This document shows positions 172-14,916 of a DNA stretch of 64,000 bases, in pieces. The first letter of the stretch is position 1. Every line of letters starts with the position of its first letter. The notes beneath the pieces are model-generated. The model was not told where the DNA came from, did no database searches, and saw nothing but the letters and a program-made list of their open reading frames with translations. The DNA is from Sphingobium sp. WTD-1 (GTDB lineage Bacteria; Pseudomonadota; Alphaproteobacteria; Sphingomonadales; Sphingomonadaceae), in NCBI RefSeq assembly GCF_030128825.1, contig NZ_CP119127.1:2790001-2854000 (forward strand), written 5' to 3'. The position numbers and the translations under genes were made by a program.

Positions 172-1284
172 TTACGAGAACTGCCGACGGAGCGGCACGA
201 GGATGTCTTCGATCAGGGGAGTGCGATCCAGTCGGAGCGCAGCCCGCCGGATGACCATGGAGATTGGTGCCCGATCTACCTGACCCATCCCCATCTGAAG
301 GGAGCCGCCCATGGAAGTTTGCTGTGCGCGTGTCTTCCAGGTGCGGTATTCGCTCCCGGAAACGAACGCCGCGATCCCGAGGTGCGTTAGACGCTGAGTC
401 GAATCGATGCGCTCGAGAGTCGCGGCTCCGTAGCGAAGTGCGGACTGGAGGCGTTCTCGCACGATCTCTTCAATGATCAGCATGCCTCCGAACCCGCTCA
501 TCTGGTCGTTCGTCTCGGTGTCCTCAAGCGAAAGGCGGAACGCGACCGCCCCCTGCTCGGTCAGTCGGATTGATTCGCCCTGTTCCTGCTGGATCAGGAG
601 ATCAGGGCCATCGAGAGCCACGACGCTTCCCTTGGTCCGATCGAGGAGGCGGCTATCGCCGAACAGCGCCTTCTGCTGCAGCTCCTCGCCGAGGTCGGGG
701 TTCTCCATCTCGATTGGGCGCAGTATCTGTTGGAAGGGGCCGCCGACGATTACGAGTTCGAGCATTGTTGCCGAATGCTGGTTATGCCTTTCGACCGGTA
801 TCAGCGCCTTCGCTTTGGCGATCAGAGCCTCCTGATCGACCGGCCCGGTCGCGTTGGATAGAATGTAGTCGTGAAGTGACTGCGTGATGGCCTCATGCAG
901 ATCGGTCGCATCCCTGAAGCCACTACGGAAAAGACCGCCTTCCCACGCCTGCACCTCCTCAATGAAGGCGCTCTGTTCGGGCTGTGCCTCCACGCCCTGC
1001 TGGATGAATGCCAGAATGGGTTTCGTCCCGCGCGCTTCCCGATATTCCTGATGGGTGGCGGAGATCGCCGAGCCAGGGGGAACGAAACCGTAGTCCGGTC
1101 CGAGTATGAGGACGACGAGGTCGGCCGCCCGCACGCCCTGAAGGCAGGCAATCTGCGACGAGTTGGGCTGAGCTGGAAAGTCCTCAGCCATTATGACCTC
1201 GTTGCGCAAGGTCGTGATCGCTTTCCGTGCCGCATCACGGAGTGGTTCATAGCGAGTGATCAGTGAACTGACGAAGACCTTCAC
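172..1284 (-). CDS. DUF4062 domain protein, 370 aa
   Basis: The N-terminus (KVFVSSLITRYEPLRDAARK, then an LVVLILGPDYGF stretch near residues 55-66) matches the DUF4062 family, whose fold is generally compared with TIR/deoxyribosyltransferase-like domains. These often occur in large signalling or defence proteins. The remaining 270 residues show no domain that I recognise. The start is GTG at 1284, with GGAG eight bases upstream. It lies 82 bp downstream of the ubiquitin-like gene in the same direction, so it probably belongs to the same minus-strand unit as the nuclease/helicase. Role inferred: accessory or effector of the locus. The enzymatic activity is unknown. Confidence 0.75.
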   Translation of the reverse strand: MKVFVSSLITRYEPLRDAARKAITTLRNEVIMAEDFPAQPNSSQIACLQGVRAADLVVLILGPDYGFVPPGSAISATHQEYREARGTKPILAFIQQGVEAQPEQSAFIEEVQAWEGGLFRSGFRDATDLHEAITQSLHDYILSNATGPVDQEALIAKAKALIPVERHNQHSATMLELVIVGGPFQQILRPIEMENPDLGEELQQKALFGDSRLLDRTKGSVVALDGPDLLIQQEQGESIRLTEQGAVAFRLSLEDTETNDQMSGFGGMLIIEEIVRERLQSALRYGAATLERIDSTQRLTHLGIAAFVSGSEYRTWKTRAQQTSMGGSLQMGMGQVDRAPISMVIRRAALRLDRTPLIEDILVPLRRQFS

Positions 1285-1323
1285 CTAACGCTCCAATCTG
1301 CCTTTGCGGCGTGTTCGTGAATT

Positions 1324-1346
1324 GCCTCTCGGTCGAACTGAGAGGC
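1324..1346 (-). repeat. Intercistronic hairpin
   Basis: GCCTCTCGGT and ACTGAGAGGC form a 10-bp stem (one G-U pair) with a 3-base loop between the ubiquitin-like gene and the DUF4062 gene. No T-run follows on either strand, so it is more likely an RNA stability or processing element than a simple terminator. Confidence 0.4.
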
Positions 1347-1366
1347 GCCCAGATCGATCCGGTCGA

Positions 1367-1627
1367 CTAGGCCGCCATCAGTTCGAAAGGCGACCAGCTA
1401 CGAGCGGACGAGGTTTCGAAGAAGACCACGTCCTGTTCCGAGAGACGGATGAACTGCTTCGGCTCGATCGCCACGCGCTCGCCGGCGCGCACCATCCATA
1501 TGAGACTGTCTGCAGGGCAGTTCGCCCGTGCCAGAAGGGAGGCGGTGTCGATTACTTCGGCGTCGATGCCGAGAAGCTGACCATCGATGTCGACAATGTG
1601 GCGCAGTCCGATATCCGAGAAACCCAT
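1367..1627 (-). CDS. Small ubiquitin-like (multiubiquitin-type) protein, 86 aa
   Basis: The protein begins MGFSDIGLRHIVDIDGQLLG and ends in the pattern ERVAIEPKQFIRLSEQDVVF-FET. That order of IDG strand, LL helix, ER...I turn and V-FFET strand resembles the bacterial multiubiquitin/ubiquitin-like domain, here as one copy. There is no C-terminal diglycine, and no E1, E2 or deubiquitinase gene is in the window. The start is ATG at 1627 after AAGAAGGAGATC, a strong ribosome site. It sits between the nuclease/helicase (48 bp upstream) and the DUF4062 gene. The family call is from pattern only; a structural prediction could overturn it. Confidence 0.5.
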   Translation of the reverse strand: MGFSDIGLRHIVDIDGQLLGIDAEVIDTASLLARANCPADSLIWMVRAGERVAIEPKQFIRLSEQDVVFFETSSARSWSPFELMAA

Positions 1628-1670
1628 TTCTGATCTCCTTCTTCCGATAAATAGGAGATTCGCACGCGCG

Positions 1671-1689
1671 GGTGTCAGAAGCTGTCACC
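1671..1689 (-). promoter_or_regulatory. Operator-like palindrome A
   Basis: On the minus strand it reads GGTGACAG-CTT-CTGACACC, nearly a perfect palindrome. The same motif occurs at 5046-5064 and 6380-6398. It overlaps the stop codon of the nuclease/helicase gene and lies about 45 bases upstream of the ubiquitin-like gene, so that gene may have its own regulated promoter. The likely binder is the WYL regulator encoded at 5074. Confidence 0.6.
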
Positions 1690-4600
1690 CCCATGTTCTC
1701 GAAGGAGACAAAGTGCATTTACGAGCGTCATCTCTTCGACCGTCCTGCACGGCGTCTCTAGGAGAAGTGGGCTGGCGAATACGACTGCCGAGGCCTGCGC
1801 GCGGGATACGGCGACATTGATGCGGTTCAGAGAGAAGAGGAAGTCGATGTCGCGCGGCAGTTCCTCACCACTCGAGGTTGTCATCGACACCAGGCACACC
1901 GGAGCCTCTTGGCCTTGGAAACGGTCGACAGTGCCCACACGTATTCCTGAGGGCAGTGCTGCGCGCAACGCGTTCACCTGGGCATTGTATGGGGCGACAA
2001 CCAGAATGTCGCTATGTCCGACCACACGATCCGCGCCGTCGCGTCCGCGATAGGTCGAGCCCAGAACCATGGCGATGTGAGCGCTGATAGCGTCGATCTC
2101 CTCAGGGCAGACCTGCGATCGGCCACTGTGGACTACCATCCTGACGCCAGCTCCGACGAGCGAGGTGCCGTCGGCGCTGAAGAGCGCCTGGGTGTCAGCC
2201 GCGTCGTCGGGATGGAGCCGGTCCTCGTAAACCGCGGCGGATATGAAGCTGCAGATCGATGGATGCATGCGGCGGCTTACGGGCATGAATATGCCCCTGT
2301 CTTCGGGCACGACGCGATGCCCATCTATGAGATACTCGAGACAAGATTCCCCGCTGCGTCCGGGATGCGTCCCTTGTAGCGGCTGCGGCAGCTGCATCGG
2401 ATCGCCCACAAGGACGAGATTGCGCGCCGCTCTGGACATCGCCATGATGTTCGCCAGTGAGACCTGCCCGGCCTCGTCCACGAACAGATAGTCGAATGAC
2501 GGCGCATCGTAACGGGCGAAATGCCATGCCGTCGCTCCCATCACATCAGCAGTTCCGATCTCCGGCGAATCGTTCGACTGGACCAGTGTGATGCCGGGAT
2601 GGGAGTCGTCGTCTCCATCGTCGTTTGCCTTCTGAACAACCCGGCACTCAATTCCCTCGTTTGCCGCCCGGTCAGCTATCGCCTCGAGTAGGTTGCCGAT
2701 GGCCTTGTGACTGTTAGAAGAGACGGCAACGCGTTTGCCCACGCGGATGAGATCAACGATCGAAAGCGCGCTTACATAGGTCTTGCCGGTTCCAGGCGGC
2801 CCCTGGATCGCGAGAGTCGTCCCGTTCATGTCCGCGATCGCCGCGCTCGTTTGGGAGGAAAGGTCGCAATTGGGGTCGATGATCCCCGCTGTGCGGGAGC
2901 CGCTGCGAAAGACGGGTGGACTACGTGTCAGGAGCTGCTCGACTGCACTCGCGCGACCCGTGTCCTGGATTATGTGCTCGGTGACTGCAGCTACCGCATT
3001 GCGGAGCGTGGCATTCGCAATGGGCTTGCCTGGAATGAGGTCAAGGCGGTCGGGAAGCGGACCCTTTGCGGTCGAGCGGCGCAGAACCAGCGTTCCAGCG
3101 GTAGCGTCGAGTTCCCGGAGATCGATGTCCTCGGGCATCGCAGCGGGCTTGACGCACGGCTTCTTGCCGGCACGGAGCTTCGTCTCCTGCGCCGGGAAGC
3201 GGTATGTCCGCTCGAACGACTTGGCCGTCACTTTGACCGGGTCGCCAATGGCTTCGAGCCCCTGGATGCATTCGAGGTCGTCGAGGAGATCTTCGCTCTC
3301 CTGAGCGAGTCGATCGAAGATCGCCCACCAGGCAGGCTTGTCTTCGCGCTTGTGGAAGAAGTTTAGGTCGAGAACGAGATCGGCCACTTCGTCACCTAGC
3401 CGGGCTCGGACGGGGACCAATCGCGTCCGAAGCGCGTCGATCTCGGCGTCCTCCTCCGCGACGTTCGACAGCGCACCGGCTTCGGGCACCTCGCCCAACC
3501 TCGGCCACGGCATGTCGGCCGGTCGCACGTCCGCGACCAGCCAATCGCGTAGCAACTGCGTCGAAATGCAGTCGGTCCTGTTGTAGTCGTAGATTTTTTC
3601 TAGAAGCGCGTCGTCACCAGTCTCGCGCCAGTTCTCGTAGAACACCACGCTTGCACCGGCCGTGGCAACGTCCGCATCGCGCTTCGGCATGTAGAATGCC
3701 TCCAAGTCCTTGATTGAATAGCCCTTCTCCGAGGCGATCAGCGATCCCGATACGACCTTGAATAAGTCGACGAAGCGGCGTTCGCGTTGGAGCTGGTCCA
3801 TCGCGGCCTCACCCACTCGATGGGCAGCCGTCAGGCGGCGAAGCGCCGCGATCTCGTAGTTCGCGTAATGGTAGATCCGTGCTTGGGGATGTGCACGAAG
3901 ATGATCGACGAAGAATTCCAGCAGCTCCGCGACAGCTTGGCCTTCGGCCTCGCGATCGTGAGCCCAGAAGGCGCGAAACGTCCATTCGCCTTTATCGCGG
4001 AACCACACGCCGTGCAGATACTCTAGACCGCCCTCGTAGTAGGGGTCACCCTCTATGTCGTAGAACAGGTCCCTGTCGTCGGGCTGGGGCAGGAGACCGA
4101 AGCCTTTGCCCGGCTGAAAGTCGCGAAGTTCAAAACCGGGGGGACCACCAGCGCGGCGTTTCCGCTGTAGCTTCGCTTGCGTTGTCAGCCGCGACTGCAC
4201 CTCAGGCGACAGCTTCGGAACCCTGCCTTCGACATCAGCGAGACCGTTGAGCGTCCCGATGCCGAACGCCTCGAGCTTGCCGCGCTGGGATTTGGTGATG
4301 CCGGCGACGAGCGACAGGCTGTCCGTATCTTCCCATTCGGAGCGGCAGTGATCCTTCCACCTGCAAAGGCCGCATCCGGAAACGGGGTCGGACCTGGTTT
4401 CGGGACGCTCGTGAAGGAACGTCTCGAAGACGTTTCGAGCATTCCGGGCATAAGAGGCTACGTCAGCCAGCCGGACGGAGAACCGCGAGCCATCACCAAG
4501 TTGGAGGTGTGCGGCTTCCGGGCGTAGTTCCTGGACATCCGTCAGCAGGTCGGAATAGAGGGACAGCTGAAGAACATGCTTCGGATCCGGTTTCCGCTTC

Positions 4601-5010
4601 AGCTTCGTGTCGACCACCTCGTAGGACCAGGGACCAATTGCCGACGGCCGGTCGATCCGCTCCAGAAAGTCGGTATAGCCTCCCCAAGCGCCGCCCAGTA
4701 GCGCTCCCTGGAATATCACGTCCGGTCCGTCACGCATCGCATCAATCGTGAGTTCGACCGAGCGCTCGAGTGGAATTCCGTCCTTGGGTATCTCGACGAT
4801 CGAGCGGCCAGTCTCGCGCAGGCCCTCAAGGAACGCGAATTCGTGGGCGTCGCCCTGACGCTGGAGCAGAACCGCCTCATCACCATCTGCTGCGGGCGTG
4901 ACGTCGCCTATTTCCATCAGTCTCAGATCGAGCGTCGTGGCGTGCCTGCACCCCTTGAACCGCATCAGGTCGGAGGCGGAAAGGCGGAGTTTTCCGTCGA
5001 GCATGCGCAT
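1675..5010 (-). CDS. TM0106-type RecB-like nuclease / superfamily 1 helicase
   Basis: This is a multidomain DNA-processing enzyme of about 1111 aa. In order it has a RecB/Cas4-like nuclease (VVDTKLKRK near residue 132, with a QLSLYSDLL helix), an iron-sulphur-type cysteine cluster (CGLCRWKDHC near 213), an RNase H-like region (FYDIEGDPYYEGG near 315) and a superfamily 1 helicase. The helicase has Walker A GPPGTGKT near 735, VDEAGQ near 845, and a C-terminal VGTVDRFQGQE/NVAVSRA motif typical of Upf1/Dna2-like enzymes. An in-frame ATG at 5040 exists, but ATG 5010 follows AAAGGGGAATTATA and is preferred. It is divergent from the WYL gene across a 63-bp gap that holds operator B. Predicted activity: ATP-driven unwinding and cleavage of DNA. 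Confidence 0.88.
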   Translation of the reverse strand: MRMLDGKLRLSASDLMRFKGCRHATTLDLRLMEIGDVTPAADGDEAVLLQRQGDAHEFAFLEGLRETGRSIVEIPKDGIPLERSVELTIDAMRDGPDVIFQGALLGGAWGGYTDFLERIDRPSAIGPWSYEVVDTKLKRKPDPKHVLQLSLYSDLLTDVQELRPEAAHLQLGDGSRFSVRLADVASYARNARNVFETFLHERPETRSDPVSGCGLCRWKDHCRSEWEDTDSLSLVAGITKSQRGKLEAFGIGTLNGLADVEGRVPKLSPEVQSRLTTQAKLQRKRRAGGPPGFELRDFQPGKGFGLLPQPDDRDLFYDIEGDPYYEGGLEYLHGVWFRDKGEWTFRAFWAHDREAEGQAVAELLEFFVDHLRAHPQARIYHYANYEIAALRRLTAAHRVGEAAMDQLQRERRFVDLFKVVSGSLIASEKGYSIKDLEAFYMPKRDADVATAGASVVFYENWRETGDDALLEKIYDYNRTDCISTQLLRDWLVADVRPADMPWPRLGEVPEAGALSNVAEEDAEIDALRTRLVPVRARLGDEVADLVLDLNFFHKREDKPAWWAIFDRLAQESEDLLDDLECIQGLEAIGDPVKVTAKSFERTYRFPAQETKLRAGKKPCVKPAAMPEDIDLRELDATAGTLVLRRSTAKGPLPDRLDLIPGKPIANATLRNAVAAVTEHIIQDTGRASAVEQLLTRSPPVFRSGSRTAGIIDPNCDLSSQTSAAIADMNGTTLAIQGPPGTGKTYVSALSIVDLIRVGKRVAVSSNSHKAIGNLLEAIADRAANEGIECRVVQKANDDGDDDSHPGITLVQSNDSPEIGTADVMGATAWHFARYDAPSFDYLFVDEAGQVSLANIMAMSRAARNLVLVGDPMQLPQPLQGTHPGRSGESCLEYLIDGHRVVPEDRGIFMPVSRRMHPSICSFISAAVYEDRLHPDDAADTQALFSADGTSLVGAGVRMVVHSGRSQVCPEEIDAISAHIAMVLGSTYRGRDGADRVVGHSDILVVAPYNAQVNALRAALPSGIRVGTVDRFQGQEAPVCLVSMTTSSGEELPRDIDFLFSLNRINVAVSRAQASAVVFASPLLLETPCRTVEEMTLVNALCLLREHGGDSF

Positions 5011-5045
5011 TATAATTCCCCTTTGGACTCGGAATAGCATATATG

Positions 5046-5064
5046 GGTGACAAAATCTGTCGGG
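5046..5064. promoter_or_regulatory. Operator-like palindrome B, divergent promoter
   Basis: GGTGACAA-AAT-CTGTCGGG lies in the 63-bp gap between the divergent nuclease/helicase and WYL regulator genes. The left half matches sites A and C in seven consecutive bases; the right half is degenerate. Its position suits autoregulation plus control of the helicase unit. Confidence 0.6.
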
Positions 5065-5073
5065 GTTATCGTC

Positions 5074-6066
5074 ATGGCCTTTTCGAAAGCGCAGGAATTG
5101 CTGAGGCTGGCGATGCTGGCAACGGGACGCCGTGGCGTGACGCTGGAGGACATCCAGGAGGAGTTCTCATGTTCGGAAAGGACAGCGCAGCGTATGACCT
5201 TCGCGCTGCAGGCCGCCTTCCCCCAGACTGATTATGCGATCGGCGATGACCGAAGGGCGAGATGGAACATCCCTGCTCGTGCCATTGCGCCGCTCCTGAC
5301 ACCCTCGTCAGAGGAACTCGTCGCTTTAGCGGAGGCGATCGTCCAGCTGGACCACGCGGGCATGCCGAAAGAGGCCGCACATGCGCGTAGCCTGGAACGG
5401 AAAGTGAGGGCGCTAATACCGCCCGACAAGGGAACGAAGCTCGACGTGGACAAGGAGGCGATCCTGGAGGCGCTCGGCCACGCTGCCCGCCCTGGACCCC
5501 AGCCCGCCGCCGACAAGGACGTAGTCGAGGCGATCTACGAAGCGCTGAAGGGCCCGAACCTCCTTCGCATCAGCTATCGGAAGCGAGACGAAGACGAGCC
5601 AAGCGAGCGCATCGTCGCGCCCCACGGCCTCCTGCTTGGCGTGCGCCGGTATCTTGTTGCGCGGGATACCGGCAAGGGACGGGAAGCTAATCTGCGACAC
5701 TATCGGGTCGAAGAGATCTACGAAGCGGAGATGCTCGCCGGATCTTTCGAGATCGATGCTGGCTTTAATCTGAAGCGGCATGCCGAGAAGGGCTTTGGTT
5801 CGTATGAGAGCGAACGGGAGTTCGGTGAGGTGGTCTGGCGCTTCACGCCGGATGCAGCCGCCCACGCCCGGCGCTTCGTCTTCCACCCCACGCAGTCCAC
5901 GGAGGAGGGGGAGGATGGATCGCTTACCGTGAGCTTCATGGCATCAGGGTTTCTGGAGATGACGTGGCACCTCTACCAGTGGGGGGATGCCGTGGAAGTG
6001 TTGGCGCCGCCAAGGCTCCGCGAGATGGTCCATGAATACCGGCGCGTCTTTCCGGCTCTGCCCTAA
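5074..6066 (+). CDS. WYL-domain transcriptional regulator, 330 aa
   Basis: An N-terminal helix-turn-helix (VTLEDIQEEFSCSERTAQRM) is followed by a WYL-type ligand-sensing domain in the middle (RISYRKRDE, APHGLLLGVRRYLVARD). The C-terminal region ends WGDAVEVLAPPRLREMV, as in PafC/CapW/BrxR-like repressors. A GTG at 5047 would extend it by nine codons, but that start lies inside operator B, so ATG 5074 is chosen. WYL repressors of this kind are known to control CBASS and BREX defence operons, probably sensing nucleic-acid-derived signals. Here it sits at the centre of the locus, with operator-like sites before three transcription units. Confidence 0.85.
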   Translation: MAFSKAQELLRLAMLATGRRGVTLEDIQEEFSCSERTAQRMTFALQAAFPQTDYAIGDDRRARWNIPARAIAPLLTPSSEELVALAEAIVQLDHAGMPKEAAHARSLERKVRALIPPDKGTKLDVDKEAILEALGHAARPGPQPAADKDVVEAIYEALKGPNLLRISYRKRDEDEPSERIVAPHGLLLGVRRYLVARDTGKGREANLRHYRVEEIYEAEMLAGSFEIDAGFNLKRHAEKGFGSYESEREFGEVVWRFTPDAAAHARRFVFHPTQSTEEGEDGSLTVSFMASGFLEMTWHLYQWGDAVEVLAPPRLREMVHEYRRVFPALP

Positions 6067-6108
6067 CGATGACGCCGACTATCGAATATCAAAGTAGGAA
6101 GAGCCTGC

Positions 6109-6345
6109 ATGAGTTACCTTGACGACCTCATCGAAAATGGAACCGGCTTCCGGGTCCGTCGGAGTGAGGGTGGCGCGTCCTTCCGGCCCACGGGCGGGTC
6201 GGACGCAGAGATGGATGCGTTTCAAGCCGTCGCGAGGATCCTGCTTCGCAATGAGGGCGATGGATACCGCGTTGCTAACACCCACAAGACCAGCGACCGC
6301 GCGCAGAACCTTTACGACACCGTCATAGTGACCATCGACGAATAG
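6109..6345 (+). CDS. Small conserved-looking hypothetical protein, 78 aa
   Basis: ATG 6109 follows AGGAAGAG at good spacing and the frame has high-GC codon use. It begins MSYLDDLIENGTGFRVRRSE and ends NLYDTVIVTIDE. It has no signal peptide or membrane segment. It lies 42 bp after the WYL gene in the same direction, so it is probably co-transcribed. I do not recognise the family. A small acidic partner or inhibitor of the locus is possible but unsupported. Confidence 0.7.
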   Translation: MSYLDDLIENGTGFRVRRSEGGASFRPTGGSDAEMDAFQAVARILLRNEGDGYRVANTHKTSDRAQNLYDTVIVTIDE

Positions 6346-6379
6346 CGAACTGCTCTTCCTGTCGCGCACAACGTGGATG

Positions 6380-6398
6380 GGTGACAGTTTCTGTCATC
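6380..6398 (+). promoter_or_regulatory. Operator-like palindrome C
   Basis: GGTGACAG-TTT-CTGTCATC is the cleanest of the three copies, with one mismatch in the 8-bp arms. It lies 43 bases upstream of the SbcD-like start, with a TTGACG hexamer at 6417. It probably governs the SbcD/SbcC/190-aa unit. Confidence 0.65.
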
Positions 6399-6441
6399 CA
6401 CTTGTGAGACTCATTGCTTGACGGAAACGAAGGAGTGATTC

Positions 6442-7569
6442 GTGGGAACGCTCAAGATCATCCATAGCGCCGATTGGCAACTCGGGAAGCCGTTTGGCCG
6501 CTTCTCTCATGAGGTGCGCAACGCGCTGTCCGAAGCACGGCTCGATGCAATCGACGAACTTGGGAAGGCCGCGATGGCGGCCGGCGCAGCACATGTTGTG
6601 GTGGCGGGAGACGTGTTCGACAATGTAGAGCCTGGCGATCGTATCGTCATGCAGGCGCTGTCCCGAATGGAGCGTGCGCCGCTGACGTGGTGGCTCATGC
6701 CGGGTAATCATGACCACGCCCGTGCGGGCGGTCTTTGGAGTAGGATTCGCGCTCGCGCACCGTCATCGGTGCGGATCGTTGACACCGCTGAACCGGTCGA
6801 GATGGAGGAGGGTGCCTGGCTGCTTCCAGCGCCCCTCGAGCATCGCAAGACGACGAACGATCCGACCGCAGCGATGGTTGAAATGGCGACACCCCCTGGA
6901 GCGCTTCGGATCGGGCTGGCACACGGTTCTATCACGGAGTTCGGAGCGTCTGGCGAGAGTTCGAACCTAATCCCTCCCGATCGGGCGAAGTCTGCGGGGT
7001 TGGACTATCTCGCGCTCGGGGACTGGCACGGTTTCCTGACCGTTGGCGATAGGACTGCCTATAGTGGCACGCCGGAGATCGATAGGTTCGGGCGGGATGA
7101 ACCCGGCGCGTGCATCTCCGTGGATCTGCGGTCCGAAGAACCTCCGCAGCTCCAAAGGATCGAGACTGGCCGTTACCGTTGGATCTCACGCCGATGGAAT
7201 GTCGCGAACGAAGAGGAGCTTGAGAGGGAGATCGCTACGCTGAGGACGGAGGCGCGCCTTTCCGATGTGCTGTTGTCACTCGATCTGACGGGGGTGGCGA
7301 GCCTTTCCGACCGTGTCTCTATGTTGACCCTCTTGGAGAACCGACTGGCGCACGAGTTGCGCAACCTCGATCTGGATACTGATGAGCTAATTGCCCAGCC
7401 CACGTCGGACGACATCGCGAGGATCGAAGTTCAGGGGGCCCTTGCCGGTGCCACTGCTGCACTGCAATCCCAAGCGGATACCAACGGCCCGAATGCGCAG
7501 ATTGCGGCGGCGGCTTTGGAGCGTCTCTATGTCGAAGCCCTTCGATTTGACGCGGAGGTGTCGAAATGA
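6442..7569 (+). CDS. SbcD/Mre11-like metallophosphoesterase (YhaO type)
   Basis: This is the nuclease subunit of a predicted SbcCD-like complex, 375 aa. Phosphoesterase motifs are in order: HSADWQLG (D11, with Q13 where the usual DxH has histidine), VVAGDVFD (D57), PGNHDH (N89, H90), AHGS (H161) and GDWHG (H196). The last 150 residues form a capping and partner-binding region. The start is GTG 6442 after AAGGAG at seven bases. It overlaps the SbcC-like gene by four bases (ATGA), so translation is coupled. Predicted action: Mn-dependent nicking or end processing of DNA, gated by the partner ATPase. Confidence 0.85.
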   Translation: MGTLKIIHSADWQLGKPFGRFSHEVRNALSEARLDAIDELGKAAMAAGAAHVVVAGDVFDNVEPGDRIVMQALSRMERAPLTWWLMPGNHDHARAGGLWSRIRARAPSSVRIVDTAEPVEMEEGAWLLPAPLEHRKTTNDPTAAMVEMATPPGALRIGLAHGSITEFGASGESSNLIPPDRAKSAGLDYLALGDWHGFLTVGDRTAYSGTPEIDRFGRDEPGACISVDLRSEEPPQLQRIETGRYRWISRRWNVANEEELEREIATLRTEARLSDVLLSLDLTGVASLSDRVSMLTLLENRLAHELRNLDLDTDELIAQPTSDDIARIEVQGALAGATAALQSQADTNGPNAQIAAAALERLYVEALRFDAEVSK

Positions 7570-10196
7570 TCATCAAAAGTCTAGAGGTTGCGAACTTCCG
7601 CAAGTTCCGCGATCCCCTTCGCGTCGAGGGCTTCACCGACGGTCTCAACGTCGTTGTCGAGCCCAACGAGACGGGTAAATCGACCTTGCTGGAAGCCCTC
7701 CGTGCTGCGTTTTTCGTTCGATACTCTGCCAAAACCGAACTGGTGCGGTCCTATGTTCCGATCGGTGACGACGTCGCGCCAAGAGTGTCGGTTGGCTTCC
7801 ACATCGGAGAGGATGCCTGGACGCTCGAAAAGCAGTTTATGAAGTCGGCGTCCGTCCGCCTCTCCGGGGCCAGCGGCCGCAAGGAGAGCGATGCCGCTGA
7901 GGAGGCGCTGCAAGAGCTGCTGGGGTTCGAGCGGGGTAACAATAGGGGGACTGACCCGGAAACCCGCGGTCCGCTCGGCCTACTTTGGGTGGAGCAGGCC
8001 ACTGCGCTGGCGGTCGAGAATCCGAACCGCATCGTGCGTGACACGGTCAGGGGCGTCCTTGAGGCCGAAGTGGGGGCGGTTACGGGAGGCCGTCGGTTCG
8101 ATGCGATCCGGTCCAACGTTGAGACCGCATATTCCGCACTTAGAACTCCCTCAACCGGGAAGTCGAAGGGCGATCTGGCGGCTGCCGAAACACGGCTCGC
8201 CGACGCGATCGCAGCGCGCCAAGCTGCCGAAGCCGTGTTTCGCGACTATGAGGGCACGCTTGCCGACCTCGAAACTGCGAAGTCACGCTTGAAGATCTTG
8301 GAGCGCGATCTCGTCGATCCCGAGGCGGTCGAGCAGCGTCGCAAACTCGAGGACGATCTGAAGACCGCTGAAACGGCAGCGCTTCGACATTCGGCTGCCG
8401 AGGCGCAGCTCGGTCAGGCTGATGCTATCGTGACAACCGCTTCGGCGGCGATGCGGCGCCTTGACGCTGCTGATGGCCGGCTGAACTCTGCCAGAAAAGC
8501 CCTCGAGACGGCGAAAGGATCGCTGGAAGAGGCTCGCTCCAACGCCGAGAAGTTGAGCGAGGAGGAGAGGGCTCTGCGTCAGGCGCTCGATGATGCCAGA
8601 CAGGAGACGGAAGAGCATGAGTTGGCACTGGCGGGTGCTCGTGATCGTGCCCGTATATTTGCCACGGCTGCTGGAGCACGCAGGGCGATCGATGCTCGGC
8701 GTGCGCTTGACGATCTCGAGGCTCGGGAGAGGGAGCTGAAGCAGGCATCGGCGGATCGGATCGATGCCGATGAGCTCGGGAAGGTTGCTGAATACGAGTT
8801 GGCCGCGATCCAGGCGCGGGCGCGGTTCGAAGCCGGCGCCGTCAAGGTCGAGGTGGAATTGAACGAAGGCTCTGCCCTTCGGATCGACGGTGAAACCGTG
8901 GAGGTAGCCAGCATCGAGGTCTTGAAGGCCACCCGGTTTGAACTGGGGACTGCTGGTAGCGTGACCGTTCGTCCCCCAGAGGGGGCAAGCCTTAGCATCG
9001 AAGCGGACTTGGCTGCAGCGGACGGAGAGCGTGACGCTGCCCTGAGGCGGCTTGGGATCAGATCGCATTCCGAGGGCATCACGCGAAACGAGCGTGCGGC
9101 AGCGGCCGAACGGGAACTCGTGGCTCTGCAAAAGCAGATCGCGTCTGCGTGCCCTGGTGACGCGTCGATCGCGCTGGCGCCTGGTGCTGATGCACTGAAG
9201 GCGTTCGTTGCGTCTCTGGGCGAGGATCTCATCGATGCGGTCGCGCCGGTGGACGACATCGCTGCCCTCGAAGGGGCGGTGACGGAGGCCAAGCTGTCTG
9301 AGGCGACCGCATCTGGCCGACGTGAGGATGCAAGGGAGGCGCTGTCGAAGGCGGAACGCGTCAAGGCGACGGCTGATGCCGATCACGGAAGTGCGCATCG
9401 CGAGATGGAAGCGGCGAGCGAGTACCTCCGGACTGTGACCGATGCTGGCGACCGGGAGAAACTGGCAGCGGACCTTCAGTCCGCGCAGCGCGATCGGACT
9501 GCCAAGTTCGAATCTGCGGAGAAGGCGAAAGCGGGGACCGAGGCATTCGATCCTGAGGCCATCCGTCGGCGCATCGATAACATCGATCGCGCTGCGCGGC
9601 GGGCCGGAGAGGAGCGTCTCGAACTCACCGCATCGATCGCAGCGCTCGAAGCCGCAGTTGCAAGGGAGGGAACAAGCGGGCCTGCAGGAAGGATGGCGGA
9701 GGCGCGTGAGAATGAGGAGGCCGGAGCGACTTCCCTCGAGCGCCTCAGGCGCGAGGCGGATACGCTCGACATGCTGCGGAAAGCCCTGACGCAGGCGGCG
9801 GACGAGGCTTCTAGGACGTTCCTTGCACCCGTGACGGCACGTGCGGGGCGCTACATTCAGCAACTTCTGCCGGGTAGCGATTTGTCGTTCAACGAAGAGC
9901 TCGGGCTCGCTGGGGTGACACGGGCTGGGATCGACGAGGCGTGTGGCGACCTTAGTCGGGGAACACAGGAGCAATTGGCGATCCTGACTCGTCTGGCGTT
10001 CGCAGACCTGCTGTTGGAGGATGGAGCACCGATTTCCCTCATACTGGATGATCCATTGGTCTATTCGGACGACATCCGGCTGGAGACGATGACGGACATC
10101 CTGCAGGAGGCGTCCAAACGGATGCAGGTCATCTTGCTAACTTGCAGGTCCAAGGCATTTCGTCATGTCGAAGCTAACCGGATCGTGCTCAGATGA
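7566..10196 (+). CDS. SbcC/YhaN-like SMC-family ATPase, 876 aa
   Basis: The ATPase head is split between the two ends. The N-terminus has Walker A EPNETGKST (residues 32-40). The C-terminus has an ABC-type signature and Walker B (GDLSRGTQEQLAIL, then SLILDDPLV). About 500 alanine/glutamate/arginine-rich residues between them form long coiled coils. No CxxC zinc hook is visible; only one cysteine falls in the middle. This suits a YhaN-like rather than classical Rad50/SbcC protein. It overlaps the genes on both sides by four bases, forming a tight operon with the phosphoesterase. Confidence 0.87.
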   Translation: MIIKSLEVANFRKFRDPLRVEGFTDGLNVVVEPNETGKSTLLEALRAAFFVRYSAKTELVRSYVPIGDDVAPRVSVGFHIGEDAWTLEKQFMKSASVRLSGASGRKESDAAEEALQELLGFERGNNRGTDPETRGPLGLLWVEQATALAVENPNRIVRDTVRGVLEAEVGAVTGGRRFDAIRSNVETAYSALRTPSTGKSKGDLAAAETRLADAIAARQAAEAVFRDYEGTLADLETAKSRLKILERDLVDPEAVEQRRKLEDDLKTAETAALRHSAAEAQLGQADAIVTTASAAMRRLDAADGRLNSARKALETAKGSLEEARSNAEKLSEEERALRQALDDARQETEEHELALAGARDRARIFATAAGARRAIDARRALDDLEARERELKQASADRIDADELGKVAEYELAAIQARARFEAGAVKVEVELNEGSALRIDGETVEVASIEVLKATRFELGTAGSVTVRPPEGASLSIEADLAAADGERDAALRRLGIRSHSEGITRNERAAAAERELVALQKQIASACPGDASIALAPGADALKAFVASLGEDLIDAVAPVDDIAALEGAVTEAKLSEATASGRREDAREALSKAERVKATADADHGSAHREMEAASEYLRTVTDAGDREKLAADLQSAQRDRTAKFESAEKAKAGTEAFDPEAIRRRIDNIDRAARRAGEERLELTASIAALEAAVAREGTSGPAGRMAEARENEEAGATSLERLRREADTLDMLRKALTQAADEASRTFLAPVTARAGRYIQQLLPGSDLSFNEELGLAGVTRAGIDEACGDLSRGTQEQLAILTRLAFADLLLEDGAPISLILDDPLVYSDDIRLETMTDILQEASKRMQVILLTCRSKAFRHVEANRIVLR

Positions 10197-10765
10197 GCTT
10201 GGGAATGCCGACCCGCAGTCGGTTTGCGATCTCGTTCACCGAAGCTGAAGAGGCCTTAGTCGCGCGGATTGATTTCCGTCGGCACAACCCGACCACTCGG
10301 GAAGCTCGCACCGCGTATGAAGGAAACCTGGAGCCGATACCCCGCCTACTGTCGTCGCTCAGCGAACGGAATGCCATTCCCGCGCAGCGCGTGAGCTACT
10401 GGACCGATCCAGAGTTTCGGACGGGCCGCCTGAAAGGCTCGCGTGAGCAGCTATTCGCTAGGAACGGAACGGTAGGCGAGGAAGCGTTCGTGCATTTTGG
10501 TTTCCTACCGACGCTCCATTACTTCCTCTTCGGGGTGAATCTTCCGGTCGCCGTGATTGCCGCCTTCGAAGCCGAGGTGGGGGATCCCCGATGGGCCTCG
10601 CTCGACGACGCGCTCGAGCATGGGAGGTGCGCCCGGGATCTTGTTAGTCAGTACTGCCTCAATCCGTCCGACGCGGGCGACGAATTTTTCAAGCTGGCGT
10701 TAGATCTCGGATTGTGGGTACAGACGGCCCTCAGGATTGAGCAGATTGTAAGACATAATCGATAG
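10193..10765 (+). CDS. Hypothetical protein at end of SbcCD-like operon, 190 aa
   Basis: The start overlaps the SbcC-like stop (ATGAGC), which supports a real, coupled gene. The protein is soluble-looking, with a charged N-terminus (DFRRHNPTTREARTAYEG), a hydrophobic middle (FLPTLHYFLFGVNLPVAVIAAF) and a C-terminus ending RIEQIVRHNR. I do not recognise the family. Its coupling suggests a specificity or accessory subunit of the ATPase/nuclease pair. Confidence 0.75.
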   Translation: MSLGMPTRSRFAISFTEAEEALVARIDFRRHNPTTREARTAYEGNLEPIPRLLSSLSERNAIPAQRVSYWTDPEFRTGRLKGSREQLFARNGTVGEEAFVHFGFLPTLHYFLFGVNLPVAVIAAFEAEVGDPRWASLDDALEHGRCARDLVSQYCLNPSDAGDEFFKLALDLGLWVQTALRIEQIVRHNR

Positions 10766-11922: not shown

Positions 11923-12777
11923 ATGTTCAATCGACATGTGTCGGCGCTTCTGCCGACCACGGCGTTCGTCTTGCTTTGGAGCAGCGGTGCCATCGTTTCC
12001 GAAATCGGGCTACAGCATGGCTCGGCCTTCGCATTGCTGATCCTGCGATATGGCCTGGCTCTCGCCGTTCTTGTCGCTGCGGCGATTTACAACCGCAAAC
12101 TTGTGCCGGAGCAAGGAAGCAGGTGGCGCGTGGCATTTATCGGCTTCTCAATCGCGGGCGTCTATTCCGTTTGCTACCTTCTGGCCATGGAGCACGGCGT
12201 TACGCCAGGAGCGCTTGCGACCATCCTTGGCGTCCAACCGATCATCACCGTTCTGTTAACTGAGCGTAAGGCGGGAGTGTTGCGCATACTCGGTCTACTT
12301 CTGGCGCTCGGTGGCTTGGCCACGGTCGTCGGTGATGGTCTGGTCGCCTCAAGGTTCGAGCCGCTTGGGCTCGTATTTGCGTTGCTGGCCCTTCTTGGGA
12401 TTACCTTCGGTTCAATCGCTCAAAAGCGCGAGACGCAAGCGCCTTGGGTGGTCCTTCCCATGCAATATGCCGTCGGCCTGTCGCTTGCATGCAGCGTAGC
12501 ACCGTTTGCCGGCGTCGAAGCCACATGGAATGCGCCGTTCGTGCTGTCAGGCATATGGCTCGGGCTGGTAATATCCGTAGGCACCACCTTCCTGCTTTAT
12601 CGACTGATTGCCCGCGGAAATCTAGTGAACGTGACTAGCCTCTTCTACCTCGTGCCCGGCGTCACGGCCCTGATGGATTGGGTCTTGCTCGGCAACCCTA
12701 TGTCCCATTGGGCGATCGGTGGACTGCTACTGATCATGCTCGGACTCGCGGTGACATTCCGGTCTAAAGCAGTCTGA
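11923..12777 (+). CDS. EamA-family (DMT superfamily) transporter
   Basis: About 284 aa with roughly ten hydrophobic segments in two EamA repeats (for example ALLPTTAFVLLWSSGAIVSE at the start and GGLLLIMLGLAVTF at the end). The family exports small metabolites such as amino acids. ATG 11923 (MFNRHVSALL) is preferred over an upstream in-frame ATG at 11875, which adds a cysteine-rich non-membrane stretch. It stands alone on the plus strand and ends in a hairpin at 12788-12813. The substrate cannot be read from sequence. Confidence 0.85.
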   Translation: MFNRHVSALLPTTAFVLLWSSGAIVSEIGLQHGSAFALLILRYGLALAVLVAAAIYNRKLVPEQGSRWRVAFIGFSIAGVYSVCYLLAMEHGVTPGALATILGVQPIITVLLTERKAGVLRILGLLLALGGLATVVGDGLVASRFEPLGLVFALLALLGITFGSIAQKRETQAPWVVLPMQYAVGLSLACSVAPFAGVEATWNAPFVLSGIWLGLVISVGTTFLLYRLIARGNLVNVTSLFYLVPGVTALMDWVLLGNPMSHWAIGGLLLIMLGLAVTFRSKAV

Positions 12778-12787
12778 GAAAATTTGC

Positions 12788-12817
12788 GGCTCGCTGCCTT
12801 TGGGAAGCGAGCCGTTT
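12788..12817 (+). terminator. Terminator of the EamA transporter
   Basis: GGCTCGCT (12788-12795) and AGCGAGCC (12806-12813) form a perfect 8-bp stem with a 10-base loop, followed by GTTTC. It begins ten bases after the transporter stop codon. Confidence 0.6.
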
Positions 12818-12835
12818 CAGGCACAATTCAAGATT

Positions 12836-12890
12836 GCTGAACGGCGAGTTTTGGCATGCTTGGCCGTTCAGCGGCTGCTCGCTGAACGGC
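12836..12890. repeat. Triple GCTGAACGGC repeat
   Basis: The decamer GCTGAACGGC occurs at 12836-12845, inverted at 12863-12872, and direct again at 12881-12890. It may be a remnant of a mobile-element end or a binding site. The rest of 12818-13144 holds no supported gene. Confidence 0.45.
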
Positions 12891-13144
12891 GTCATTGGTC
12901 GCAAGCCACCATCTGCATTGCGCCCATCCAAGTCACTCGAGTGGAAAAATGCTGTGCCAACGACCGGTCGGTCCGCTTATGACTAGGGCTGGGACAAACC
13001 CGCCCTTCGTGGGCTTGACCTTGAACGACGGGTTTCGGATGAACCTGCCGCTCGAGAGGCTGCCCCCGGATGTTTTCAAGAATATCTACCATTCTCTCGC
13101 GCAATTTTTCTTTTATACTAACCAATATGTAACAGGGTAATTAG

Positions 13145-14062
13145 TCAATTTGCGTTTTGCGAAAGTCTCAGATATTCTGAAGTTCTTAGCTGCTTCTCCT
13201 TCTTGCAGAGTGATGGGTTCCGTTCGGCATTCCAATGCATTGGGCATACTGGATCGTATAGATTCGGATCCTCATTGACGACCTCGACCGCAAACGCCGA
13301 TTGGACATAAGGATCATCTATTCTCCGGCTACTGTCCCTCGTGTTTGCACGAGGAGCACCTAATGCATCCGCTTGAGCAGTATTCAAATGCACAAAATTG
13401 TCATCCGTGTATCCAGGCATACGTGGACTGGCGTAAAGTGTAAGACGGCGGCCTTTATAGATAATGTTCACCGCCCGGTTCGCATAGCCAAAGGATGGAC
13501 TTACATTTACGGTGAACCTTTTTGGCTCTTCCTCACCAGAAGGTACTCCAATTTTGACAGGAATCCCCACGTCGTTAAACGGAGGCTCCCGTTTCTCAGC
13601 ACGCTGCCTAATCTCCATGATGGCTTGATTGCAGGTCTTACTGTTCTTGTTGACGCATATTTTGTCCATGAGTAGGCGATATGCTCCCTCGCCTGGCGGG
13701 CCAAAAGCCGTTTCCTTTGCCAAGGCCTCAACCAAGCGAGGATCACTCTTCTGGAAAAAATTGAAGCGCCCCAAGATTTGACTGGCACTATCTCCATCCT
13801 CCAACAGGGCATCCGAGATCTTTGACTGTGTATCATAAAATATCTTATAATACAGAAATGTTCCTGCGAACGTAATTATGATGACAGAAAAGCTCAAATA
13901 AGCCACAAACTTTAAGTTCGCGACTCGCTTTTTGTCCTTTAATGTTTCGAGTATAAGATTGTAAGTCTGATCAGCTGTCAGCTTGCGCGTGTTTATCCTT
14001 TCAATCTTTAAGAGTCCGTTTGGAAAATCAGGGATGAGCGTTTCGGCGTAGTAGGTTTCCAC
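13145..14062 (-). pseudogene. C-terminal part of IS-interrupted membrane protein gene
   Basis: The open frame has 305 codons, but its first 17 codons come from the end of the IS element. From codon 18 it is the native protein: a short charged stretch (KIERINTRKLTADQTYN), one membrane segment (FVAYLSFSVIIITFAGTFLY) and about 220 mostly soluble residues containing RFTVNVSPSFGYANRAVNII, with four or more cysteines near the end. The N-terminal piece is at 14917-15102. Joining across the IS through one TAA target copy restores one 349-aa frame. The ATG at 14062 inside the IS could still drive a chimeric product. The family is not recognised. Confidence 0.75.
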
Positions 14063-14916
14063 CCATGGCGACGAGGATCATCGCCTGTGAGACGTCGATG
14101 CGCTTTTCGTAGTCGCGGACCAGACGGCGCCATCGGGTCATCCATCCGAAGGTGCGTTCGACGACCCAGCGGCGCGGAAGCACCTTGAAGCCCTGCTGGC
14201 GATCGCTTCGACGGATGACCTGCACGACAAAGTCGAGGTAGCTGGCCTTGTCCATGAGCTTGAGGCGATCATAGGCGCCATCGGCAAAGAGATGCTTCAC
14301 CCACGGCCAGCGCTTGCGGATGCCATCGAGGATCGCCTGAGCGCCTGCACTATCGGAGATATCGGCGGTAGTGAGGTTGACCATCAGCAAGCGTCCATCG
14401 GTGTCGACTGCGATATGCCGCTTGCGACCGACGATCTTCTTGCCTGCGTCAAAACCGCGCTTTTCTGCGGAAGGCGCCTTGACCGACTGGCTGTCGATGA
14501 CCGCCGCACTGGGGCTGGCTTCTCGCCCCTCACGTTCTCGGTCCAACATCAATTCGATGTCGTGGATCGTCTGGAACAGGAACCTGCGTGCCAGCTCCCG
14601 AAACCAGCCATAGACCGTCTGCCAGGCGCCAAAATGGATCGGCAGCATCCGCCAACCACACCCCGATCGCACCAGATAGCGGACCGCGTTGATCACTTCG
14701 CGGAAATCCACCTCGCGGGGACGGCCTCGACGACCCGGCTTGGGCATCAACGGCGCAAGGCGATCCCATTCCTCATCGGTCAGGTCACTGGGATAACGCT
14801 TCGTCTTCTTCGCAATCTGGGCCATCCGCCCCCGGCTCTGCTGCGTCCACATCCAGAGCCTGAATCACGCAGATACGCCTATGACAACCCCTGCCGCCGA
14901 TTTCCCAAACAGCCTC
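14012..14916 (-). mobile_element. Complete IS5-family insertion sequence, 905 bp
   Basis: The terminal inverted repeats are GAGTCCGTTTGGAAAATC (14012-14029) and, at the other end, the complement of GAGGCTGTTTGGGAAATC (14899-14916), matching at 15 of 18 positions. The flanks carry a 3-bp target duplication, TAA, at 14009-14011 and 14917-14919, as expected for the IS1031-type branch of IS5. One intact transposase fills the element. Both ends and both target copies are intact, so the insertion looks recent. Confidence 0.92.
14028..14852 (-). CDS. IS5-family DDE transposase, 274 aa
   Basis: The N-terminal DUF4096-like region (YPSDLTDEEWDRLAPLMP) is followed by the catalytic DDE core: first Asp in AVIDSQSVKAP, second in FADGAYDRLK, and Glu in RWVVERTFGWM with the trailing RDYEKRI. 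The length is normal for the single-frame IS5 group. The stop codon overlaps the left terminal repeat. An internal ATG at 14825 is an alternative start. No frameshift is seen, so it is likely active. Confidence 0.92.
   Translation of the reverse strand: MWTQQSRGRMAQIAKKTKRYPSDLTDEEWDRLAPLMPKPGRRGRPREVDFREVINAVRYLVRSGCGWRMLPIHFGAWQTVYGWFRELARRFLFQTIHDIELMLDREREGREASPSAAVIDSQSVKAPSAEKRGFDAGKKIVGRKRHIAVDTDGRLLMVNLTTADISDSAGAQAILDGIRKRWPWVKHLFADGAYDRLKLMDKASYLDFVVQVIRRSDRQQGFKVLPRRWVVERTFGWMTRWRRLVRDYEKRIDVSQAMILVAMGGNLLRRNAHP

Follow-up and report, generated by a model that had tools for sequence, protein, structure and literature searches.

A putative WYL-controlled defence or damage module with a Mre11–Rad50-like pair and a helicase-nuclease in Sphingobium sp. 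WTD-1

The regulator DriD of Caulobacter crescentus responds to single-stranded DNA (ssDNA), according to PMC12340889; it binds over the −35 region at one distance from the −10 element and activates an operon divergent from its own gene. The targets named in that paper and in PMC4211646 include didA, bapE, recJ and dnaG. A DriD-like regulator with a WYL domain lies in a locus of Sphingobium sp. WTD-1 that occupies positions 172–10765 of a stretch of 64,000 nucleotides (contig NZ_CP119127.1, positions 2,790,001 to 2,854,000), referred to here as the window. As a first-pass annotation had proposed, the locus comprises eight genes in two arms; all are real open frames at the positions claimed, and those for DUF4062, TM0106, WYL, SbcD and SbcC match Pfam or NCBIfam models. 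On the minus strand a gene for a TM0106-type enzyme is followed by those for a ubiquitin-like protein of 86 amino acids (aa), UbL, and a DUF4062 protein; on the plus strand the WYL gene is followed by a 78-aa gene, the SbcD-like and SbcC-like genes (together SbcCD) and a 190-aa gene. As that annotation had supposed, the set looks like an inducible nuclease module with a shared operator; it stands in a defence island. The comparison with PADLOC that it called for has been run, and no named system in PADLOC 2.0.0 or NCBIfam matches the gene set; nor is the set described in the full-text literature searched, most subscription journals lying outside that search. The locus is a recurring regulon without a name in these sources, a WYL-controlled defence or damage module built on a Mre11–Rad50-like pair and a helicase-nuclease.

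The resemblance to DriD spans the wHTH-WYL-WCX architecture over residues 3–323. As described for DriD, the divergent promoter faces away from the regulator's own gene, nucleases are found among the apparent targets, and the operator lies over the −35 region, with G at −14 and A at −11 at the same offset. Unlike the DriD targets named there, which are scattered, those of the locus form a compact mobile nuclease set. The operator half-sites also differ, and ssDNA binding by the Sphingobium protein is predicted by analogy.

The SbcCD pair recalls SbcCD and Mre11–Rad50 in that a metallophosphoesterase and a Rad50-like ATPase are encoded in a coupled operon next to a helicase-nuclease; archaeal Mre11-Rad50-HerA-NurA operons likewise unite a nuclease-ATPase pair with a helicase-nuclease. 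It differs from them in the absence of a zinc hook, in its LDDP Walker B, DxQ and GDWH motifs, and in its patchy, mobile distribution. A tie to McrBC and CoCoNuT systems is seen in relatives of TM0106 (with a UPF1/DNA2-like helicase): tests at three loci, L139, L142 and L177, found McrB and McrC genes beside each. The window proteins scanned include no match to AAA_5 or McrBC. In CoCoNuTs of types II and III, McrB-like proteins have the UPF1-like helicase CnuH as their partner, and the available text does not describe a CnuH with a RecB-like nuclease (PMC11090510).

The link to Gabija and DUF4297-HerA systems is that OLD and UvrD genes (L147) and DUF4297-like and HerA genes adjoin relatives of the locus SbcCD; as in Lamassu, whose LmuB is also Rad50-like, SbcC matches the LmuB model (2.5e-12). 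The partner genes of all three systems were not found among the window proteins scanned, and no LmuA is among the families listed for SbcC (25 of 55). The names Lamassu, Gabija, PARIS, Mokosh and BREX were rejected, the PADLOC matches being limited to shared ATPase or helicase parts; for Mokosh (MkoA/MkoC) the best stretch, residues 824–1083, covers the helicase part only. Matches in PHROGs are limited to phage families resembling SbcD and SbcC, to one annotated as "DNA repair exonuclease" and to others of no assigned function. UbL has the predicted β-grasp fold of bacterial multi-ubiquitin and BubA proteins, from which it differs in being a single domain without a GG end.

The shared operator and recurrence of the gene set

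A 21-bp palindrome, GGGTGACAG-N3-CTGTCACCC, stands at three places in the locus, upstream of TM0106, SbcD and UbL (Table 1). The first-pass annotation had tied the two arms together by one operator; the sharing holds, and the number is three. A scan of the window allowing up to three mismatches gave six matches against 0.38 expected, five of them at the three places of the locus, and none of 100 shuffles reached six. In the whole genome only four matches have at most one mismatch, three of which are in the locus (reversed control, 0). The "−10" of the operator at 5045–5065 faces TM0106, and 8 bp separate the operator from the WYL start. Because this operator covers 5045–5065, the start of WYL is corrected from 5047, as first annotated, to 5074. 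The SbcD operator lies 42 bp before the SbcD start. The UbL operator overlaps the stop codon of TM0106, and its position is kept in L012, L022, L024 (no UbL found there), L130 and L174.

The operator is conserved beyond the window. At L012, L013, L014, L022 and L024 the palindrome is found 36–42 bp before SbcD, with 14–18 of 18 positions matched (shuffle p ≤ 0.01), and at L014, where SbcCD and WYL are about 5 kb apart, a site is present at both. Among 99 SbcD upstream regions, it precedes SbcD in 6 of the 13 rows with WYL in the locus (L129 repeating L022) and in 1 of the 86 without; some rows are repeats of, or very near to, others (L022/L129, L064/L135, L030/L145, L032/L146, L075/L149 and L011/L089). 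The single WYL-less row with an SbcD operator is L018, from a draft genome of Sphingomonas aquatilis, and another contig of that genome (L174) carries WYL (66%), TM0106 (70%) and UbL (40%); the operator is therefore present in trans. That it is shared at constant positions, and once in trans, is the strongest evidence for joint action: on the evidence of sequence, WYL, TM0106, SbcCD and UbL are predicted to work together as a regulon and are not chance neighbours.

Rare co-occurrence of the genes, which the first-pass annotation had named as a ground for refuting its reading, holds half-way for the full set and clearly does not hold for the core. In a profile scan for SbcD in one genome per species (84,980 genomes), the best 80 loci were used, of which 22 are shorter than 19 kb, so that part of their neighbours is out of sight. 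An SbcC-like match follows SbcD in all 80 (partial in the most distant). TM0106 and WYL are both present at only nine (L012, L014, L022, L024, L064, L066, L067, L068 and L070), which tempers the earlier joining of SbcCD with these two genes; L013 has WYL and UbL and no TM0106. The exact eight-gene set of the first-pass annotation is in none of the other loci read, the nearest being L012 (Novosphingobium sp. BW1), with six of eight genes at 75–88% identity. Conservation of the set as a whole was rejected, the DUF4062, 78-aa and 190-aa genes not being widely matched: among the best 80 loci the 78-aa gene is matched in L012 only and DUF4062 gives no tblastn match, and the 190-aa gene has only partial matches, in L009–L011 and L089.

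Across the order 396 genomes were sampled evenly, that of the locus among them. TM0106 (E ≤ 1e-60) is found in 31 and SbcD in 15; five genomes have both, where 1.2 would be expected (p 0.004), and in four of the five the two lie within 5 kb (p ~1e-10). With the own genome removed, four have both (expected 1.1, p 0.016), three of them within 5 kb (p ~4e-8). Where TM0106 is at least 53% identical in this sample, all eight cases have a divergent WYL gene as neighbour, and UbL is downstream in four. At 45% identity or less, WYL is strong in two and weak in two of the 22 loci read; a strong WYL neighbour enters the Fisher test as 2 of 23 low-identity genomes, one of which, G134, is without a locus. 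The class sample (289 genomes, evenly sampled, own genome included; E ≤ 1e-100) has TM0106 in seven; at the other six loci WYL is adjacent where TM0106 is at 76% and 54%, weak at 44% and absent at three. The genomes of three near relatives known only at the protein level, SbcD P0002 (96%, Sphingobium sp. YG1), SbcD P0003 and UbL P0121, may carry more of the set.

Three gene orders are seen: divergent (the window, L012, L022 and L024), TM0106-SbcD-SbcC in a row (L064, L066–68 and L070), and SbcCD on the other side of WYL (L133). These argue against simple hitch-hiking.

The palindrome is also found 54 bp before a gene for a DUF2779 protein (495 aa) in L176 (L176:2026-9987), where a WYL gene (56%) is present and SbcCD has no match, and before a similar-looking 495-aa gene at L163:2414. 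This group of WYL regulators may, judging by these sites, control further genes.

Defence, repair and the mode of regulation

The reading favoured here, with reservations, is of a mobile regulon for DNA-end processing that is inducible by damage and most likely serves against invading DNA. In such a regulon the WYL protein would act like DriD. ssDNA would accumulate during phage replication, on cut plasmid or phage DNA, or at broken forks; it would be bound by the WYL domain, and the protein would then bind the palindromes over the −35 region and recruit RNA polymerase to promoters that have no usable −35. SbcCD, once switched on, would open blocked or hairpin DNA ends as Mre11–Rad50 does, and TM0106 would unwind and degrade DNA from the opened ends, like Dna2, with UbL and DUF4062 switched on alongside them. 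Since the nucleases produce ssDNA in their turn, the response would sustain itself. The WYL-TM0106 core pair would be a plug-in, joined in L177 to McrBC instead of SbcCD.

Defence appears the more likely use because the distribution is patchy, partly plasmid-borne and island-bound. The surroundings are those of a defence island: a Shango system that looks intact and, beside it, a fragment of Zorya. Immediately beyond the window, in L004, a transposase (presumably IS256-like) is followed by Shango genes SngC, SngB and SngA (PADLOC, 3e-231, 2e-174 and 9e-81; L004:5986-11865, C1:2780986-2786865), then by an N-terminal fragment of ZorA (8.6e-51, profile positions 5–155 of 663; L004:12016-12528) and the element that ends it, which we take to be IS21-like (12565-14893; C1:2787016-2789893 for the two), and then by DUF4062. 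Between the ZorA fragment and the locus, no open reading frame was recognised as a further Zorya gene. Some 39 kb upstream of the window, at C1:2750869-2751223, lies a tmRNA gene; islands are often inserted at genes of this kind. A DNA search of 172–10765 against 72,556 plasmid records matched one, Rhizobium leguminosarum CP090551.1, over part of TM0106 (window 1489–3939, 73% DNA identity).

Relatives of the two halves of the locus keep changing company. SbcCD without WYL and TM0106 has OLD-type ATPases nearby (L023, and L147, where UvrD completes a Gabija-like pair), a DUF4011-MTES_1575 helicase-nuclease (L152) or AbiE (L090), and DUF4297-like and HerA genes also occur near SbcCD relatives. 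HerA was tested at L029, L133 (G205) and L150 (G138) and was assigned by similarity grouping at L020, L058 and L063; the DUF4297-like partner was tested as a seven-locus profile. An initial assignment of that partner as NurA was replaced by DUF4297 (seven-sequence profile against 8ziq, 1.3e-118, with members down to 16% identity with the first), and HerA near SbcD is weak as a general rule (2 of 15). At L133 (G205:C1:22000-41900) a DUF4297-like gene, HerA, SbcD, SbcC, WYL and TM0106 lie in one cluster. Five of the 15 SbcD genomes have an AAA_12 helicase no more than 10 kb from SbcD, against 0.05 expected (p 3e-9). Four are TM0106 genomes already counted, and the fifth, G299, corresponds to L152. 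In G205 the AAA_12 domain is 6.6 kb from SbcD. WYL, TM0106, McrB and McrC stand in a row in L177. With partners that change among McrBC, OLD, AbiE and HerA, both the SbcCD half and the WYL-TM0106 half look like plug-in modules.

Several observations weigh against a defensive regulon under DriD-like control. The operator is missing before SbcD in L133 and in six rows of the L064 type, in which SbcD directly follows TM0106; several loci have further matches of at least 14 of 18 positions, scattered over unrelated places; the WYL-less rows L037 and L038 score 13 of 18 at another distance; and part of the conservation of the UbL operator may be coding, the site overlapping TM0106 codons. TM0106 and WYL are not both seen at 71 of the best 80 SbcD loci, and the p-values given above are optimistic in that relatives share descent. 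An SbcD relative is carried by 111 plasmid records; Rhizobium accounts for 66 of them, and the one Rhizobium SbcD record examined has plain metabolic neighbours. Two metal-ligand motifs of SbcD are altered, reading D-x-Q instead of D-x-H and G-D-W-H instead of G-H-x-H. The genome encodes a further WYL protein that resembles DriD more (205 bits, against 158 for the one in the locus), so that the latter looks like a DriD-like paralogue. The palindrome agrees with the DriD promoters at 10, 12 and 10 of 20 positions (p 0.77, 0.09 and 0.76 against shuffles); identity of the operator with that of DriD was rejected on this ground, and spacing alone agrees. No phage or damage experiment on any member was found in the literature searched.

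Defence is what we infer, and repair is a serious rival to it. The locus may be a horizontally moving DNA-repair or damage-tolerance regulon, an extra SOS-independent response of the DriD type in which SbcCD and TM0106 would resect host breaks. The regulator is indeed nearest to DriD, whose targets include recJ, dnaG and bapE, and Mre11–Rad50 and Dna2-like enzymes are classic resection tools. Elsewhere in the genome the sbcd model finds one further match, a weak one (21.6 bits), and a relative of SbcCD sits among ordinary genes in Rhizobium. A repair function is nevertheless unlikely on balance, given plasmid carriage, the repeated company of defence genes, and the patchiness of SbcD (15 of 396 genomes) and TM0106 (31 of 396).

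Repression was the role first proposed for the WYL protein, by analogy with BREX and CBASS; CapW and BrxR are both repressors. Such a protein would block the promoters at the operators and be released by ssDNA or nucleotides. Proximity of an operator to the WYL start fits autorepression, and a fixed distance between operator and "−10" would also suit a repressor. In comparisons with PDB sequences the WYL protein has five distinct matches below 1e-3, the best being 9pfq (4.6e-45, 158 bits, residues 3–323), with which 8tp8 aligns as the same sequence; the wHTH, linker, WYL and WCX regions of DriD are matched over nearly the full length. Matches 9cu3 and 7u02 are labelled only as WYL domain-containing, and 9pfq and 7tzv are DriD according to PMC12340889. 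The match to CapW has an E value of only 0.077, and no chain named BrxR appears at E ≤ 10, although BrxR-family WYL regulators adjoin diverse defence systems (PMC9122601).

Promoter geometry points in the same direction as these matches. When 25 of the 27 candidate sites are aligned toward their genes, a "−10"-like TGCnA stands at a fixed distance: 19 sites have G at −14 and 23 have A at −11. The two sites left out, L012_TM and L064_TM (11 of 18 positions each), also have A at −11. The −35 is poor in all 25: at spacers of 16–18, one base of TTGACA is matched in 14 sites, two in 9 and three in 2, and none has more. Placing the consensus on the three published DriD promoters puts G−14 and A−11 at the same offsets in each. 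Repression as in CBASS or BREX is accordingly doubtful and, as an account of the locus, improbable. By analogy with DriD an ssDNA-triggered activator is preferred over a repressor because of the DriD match, the DriD-like spacing, the poor −35 and the strong −10 facing TM0106.

A chance cluster of separate defence genes stacked in an island without joint function is very unlikely: islands do collect unrelated systems, the full eight-gene set has not been seen again and its DUF4062, 190-aa and 78-aa genes are not widely shared, but adjacency is above chance, the operator at three promoters is conserved in relatives, and for the core the idea is contradicted by the operator in trans in L018.

The encoded proteins

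Table 1. Coordinates of the genes and operators of the locus within the window
Feature	Position	Strand	Evidence and remarks
DUF4062 protein, 370 aa, GTG start	172..1284	-	Pfam PF13271 1.2e-17; second gene of UbL operon
UbL, 86 aa, single β-grasp, multi-ubiquitin-like, ssrA-like -MAA end	1367..1627	-	Fold search, alignment
Operator before UbL, GGGTGACAGCTTCTGACACCC toward UbL	1670..1690	-	17/18; "−10" TGCGA 1664-1660
TM0106-type enzyme, 1111 aa	1675..5010	-	TIGR03491 4.2e-88, RNase_H_2 3e-30, AAA_12 1.7e-23
Operator between TM0106 and WYL	5045..5065	.	Weakest, 13/18; "−10" TGCTA 5039-5035
wHTH-WYL-WCX regulator, 330 aa, DriD-like	5074..6066	+	WYL 1.7e-10, WCX 6e-14
78-aa coding open reading frame	6109..6345	+	78% identical in L012; codon bias
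Operator before SbcD, GGGTGACAGTTTCTGTCATCC	6379..6399	+	17/18; "−10" TGAGA 6405-6409
SbcD/Mre11-like metallophosphoesterase, 375 aa	6442..7569	+	Metallophos 1e-4; sbcd 1.6e-14
SbcC/Rad50-like ABC ATPase, 876 aa	7566..10196	+	SMC_N 5e-11
190-aa all-helical protein	10193..10765	+	14 relatives; model pLDDT 87

The TM0106-type enzyme scores 296 bits with TIGR03491 (cut-off 97). It combines a RecB-like PD-(D/E)XK nuclease, a DnaQ-like RNase_H_2 exonuclease and a UPF1/DNA2-like SF1 helicase, and its PDB matches include chains of SMUBP-2, UPF1 and DNA2. Invariant in 17 of 17 sequences are E131, D134, K136, Q148 and Y152 of the nuclease, D318, E320 and D480 of the exonuclease, and GPPGxGKT (737–744) and DEAGQ (845–849) of the helicase; all three sets of motifs are, as judged from the alignment, intact. 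Iron-sulphur cysteines are not claimed, C481 alone being invariant in the 17.

SbcD and SbcC form a predicted Mre11–Rad50-like nuclease. Translational coupling, proposed earlier, is supported by the four-base overlaps of SbcD with SbcC and of SbcC with the 190-aa gene, and the NTGA overlap at the end of SbcD recurs in 87 of the 93 loci, a count in which some genomes enter twice. The sbcd model gives SbcD 54 bits, below its cut-off of 77.65. The motif changes in SbcD are seen against the solved SbcD 2q8u and are invariant in 28 aligned sequences, all at least 70% identical. A zinc-hook Rad50 was rejected, CxxC occurring between residues 200 and 700 in none of 16 SbcC sequences. Walker B reads LDDP in all 16 (one LDDA), where Rad50 has glutamate. 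The alignment was made with 15 of the 16, L029 being excluded for one in-frame stop. The missing hook, LDDP and the altered SbcD motifs are presumably features of the YhaN/YhaO branch. At L014:13875-21089 a gene for a 2404-aa Sacsin-domain protein starts about 120 bp after SbcC.

For UbL the earlier ubiquitin-like label fares unevenly: Multi_ubiq matches the sequence at 0.11, below its cut-off, but the fold search supports it. With a model of medium confidence (pLDDT 67), Foldseek ranks 1–9 are bacterial multi-ubiquitin or BubA chains (E 7.5e-4 to 1.1e-2, two below 0.001). Among 41 aligned relatives, five match Multi_ubiq at E ≤ 1 and seven match DUF7443 (best 0.0022), and the last A is invariant. 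After a variable tail, 118 of the 120 relatives listed (124 found) end in AA, 77 of them in LAA; such an end is seen in 41 of 989 crude open reading frames in the loci and in 10 of 120 SbcD relatives. The host tmRNA tag is ANDNEALAIAA, and LAA ends are ssrA-type tails recognised via ClpXP. The tail looks like a degron, or like a tail read by some other factor. It is possible, if rather doubtful, that UbL acts on its own as a ubiquitin-like adaptor that carries an ssrA-type degron. It would bind a partner (possibly a phage protein or the nuclease complex) and deliver it to ClpXP via its own near-invariant AA end. The ssDNA-triggered regulon would then couple DNA shredding to targeted proteolysis without E1/E2 conjugation. 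No Prok-JAB match over the cut-off lies within 200 kb of UbL (the nearest is about 213 kb away, and one below the cut-off about 51 kb away), and the eight locus proteins scanned gave no E1, E2 or DUB match, no search having been aimed at E1/E2 families.

The remaining proteins are less widely shared. The DUF4062 protein is accessory. The 78-aa frame is taken as coding because 46 of its 65 differences from L012 fall on third codon positions (9/10/46 by position). The model of the 190-aa protein is confident (pLDDT 87), yet it has no PDB fold match at E ≤ 0.001, and its fold suggests no function.

Implications

If the favoured reading is correct, a DriD-type ssDNA alarm of the host damage response arms a mobile set of Mre11–Rad50-like and Dna2-like nucleases. 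The rule of palindrome, 5 bp and TGCnA would then find targets of this WYL group elsewhere, in trans as well as in cis. The regulon would also add a ubiquitin-like protein that carries a degron-like tail and has no conjugation genes known beside it.

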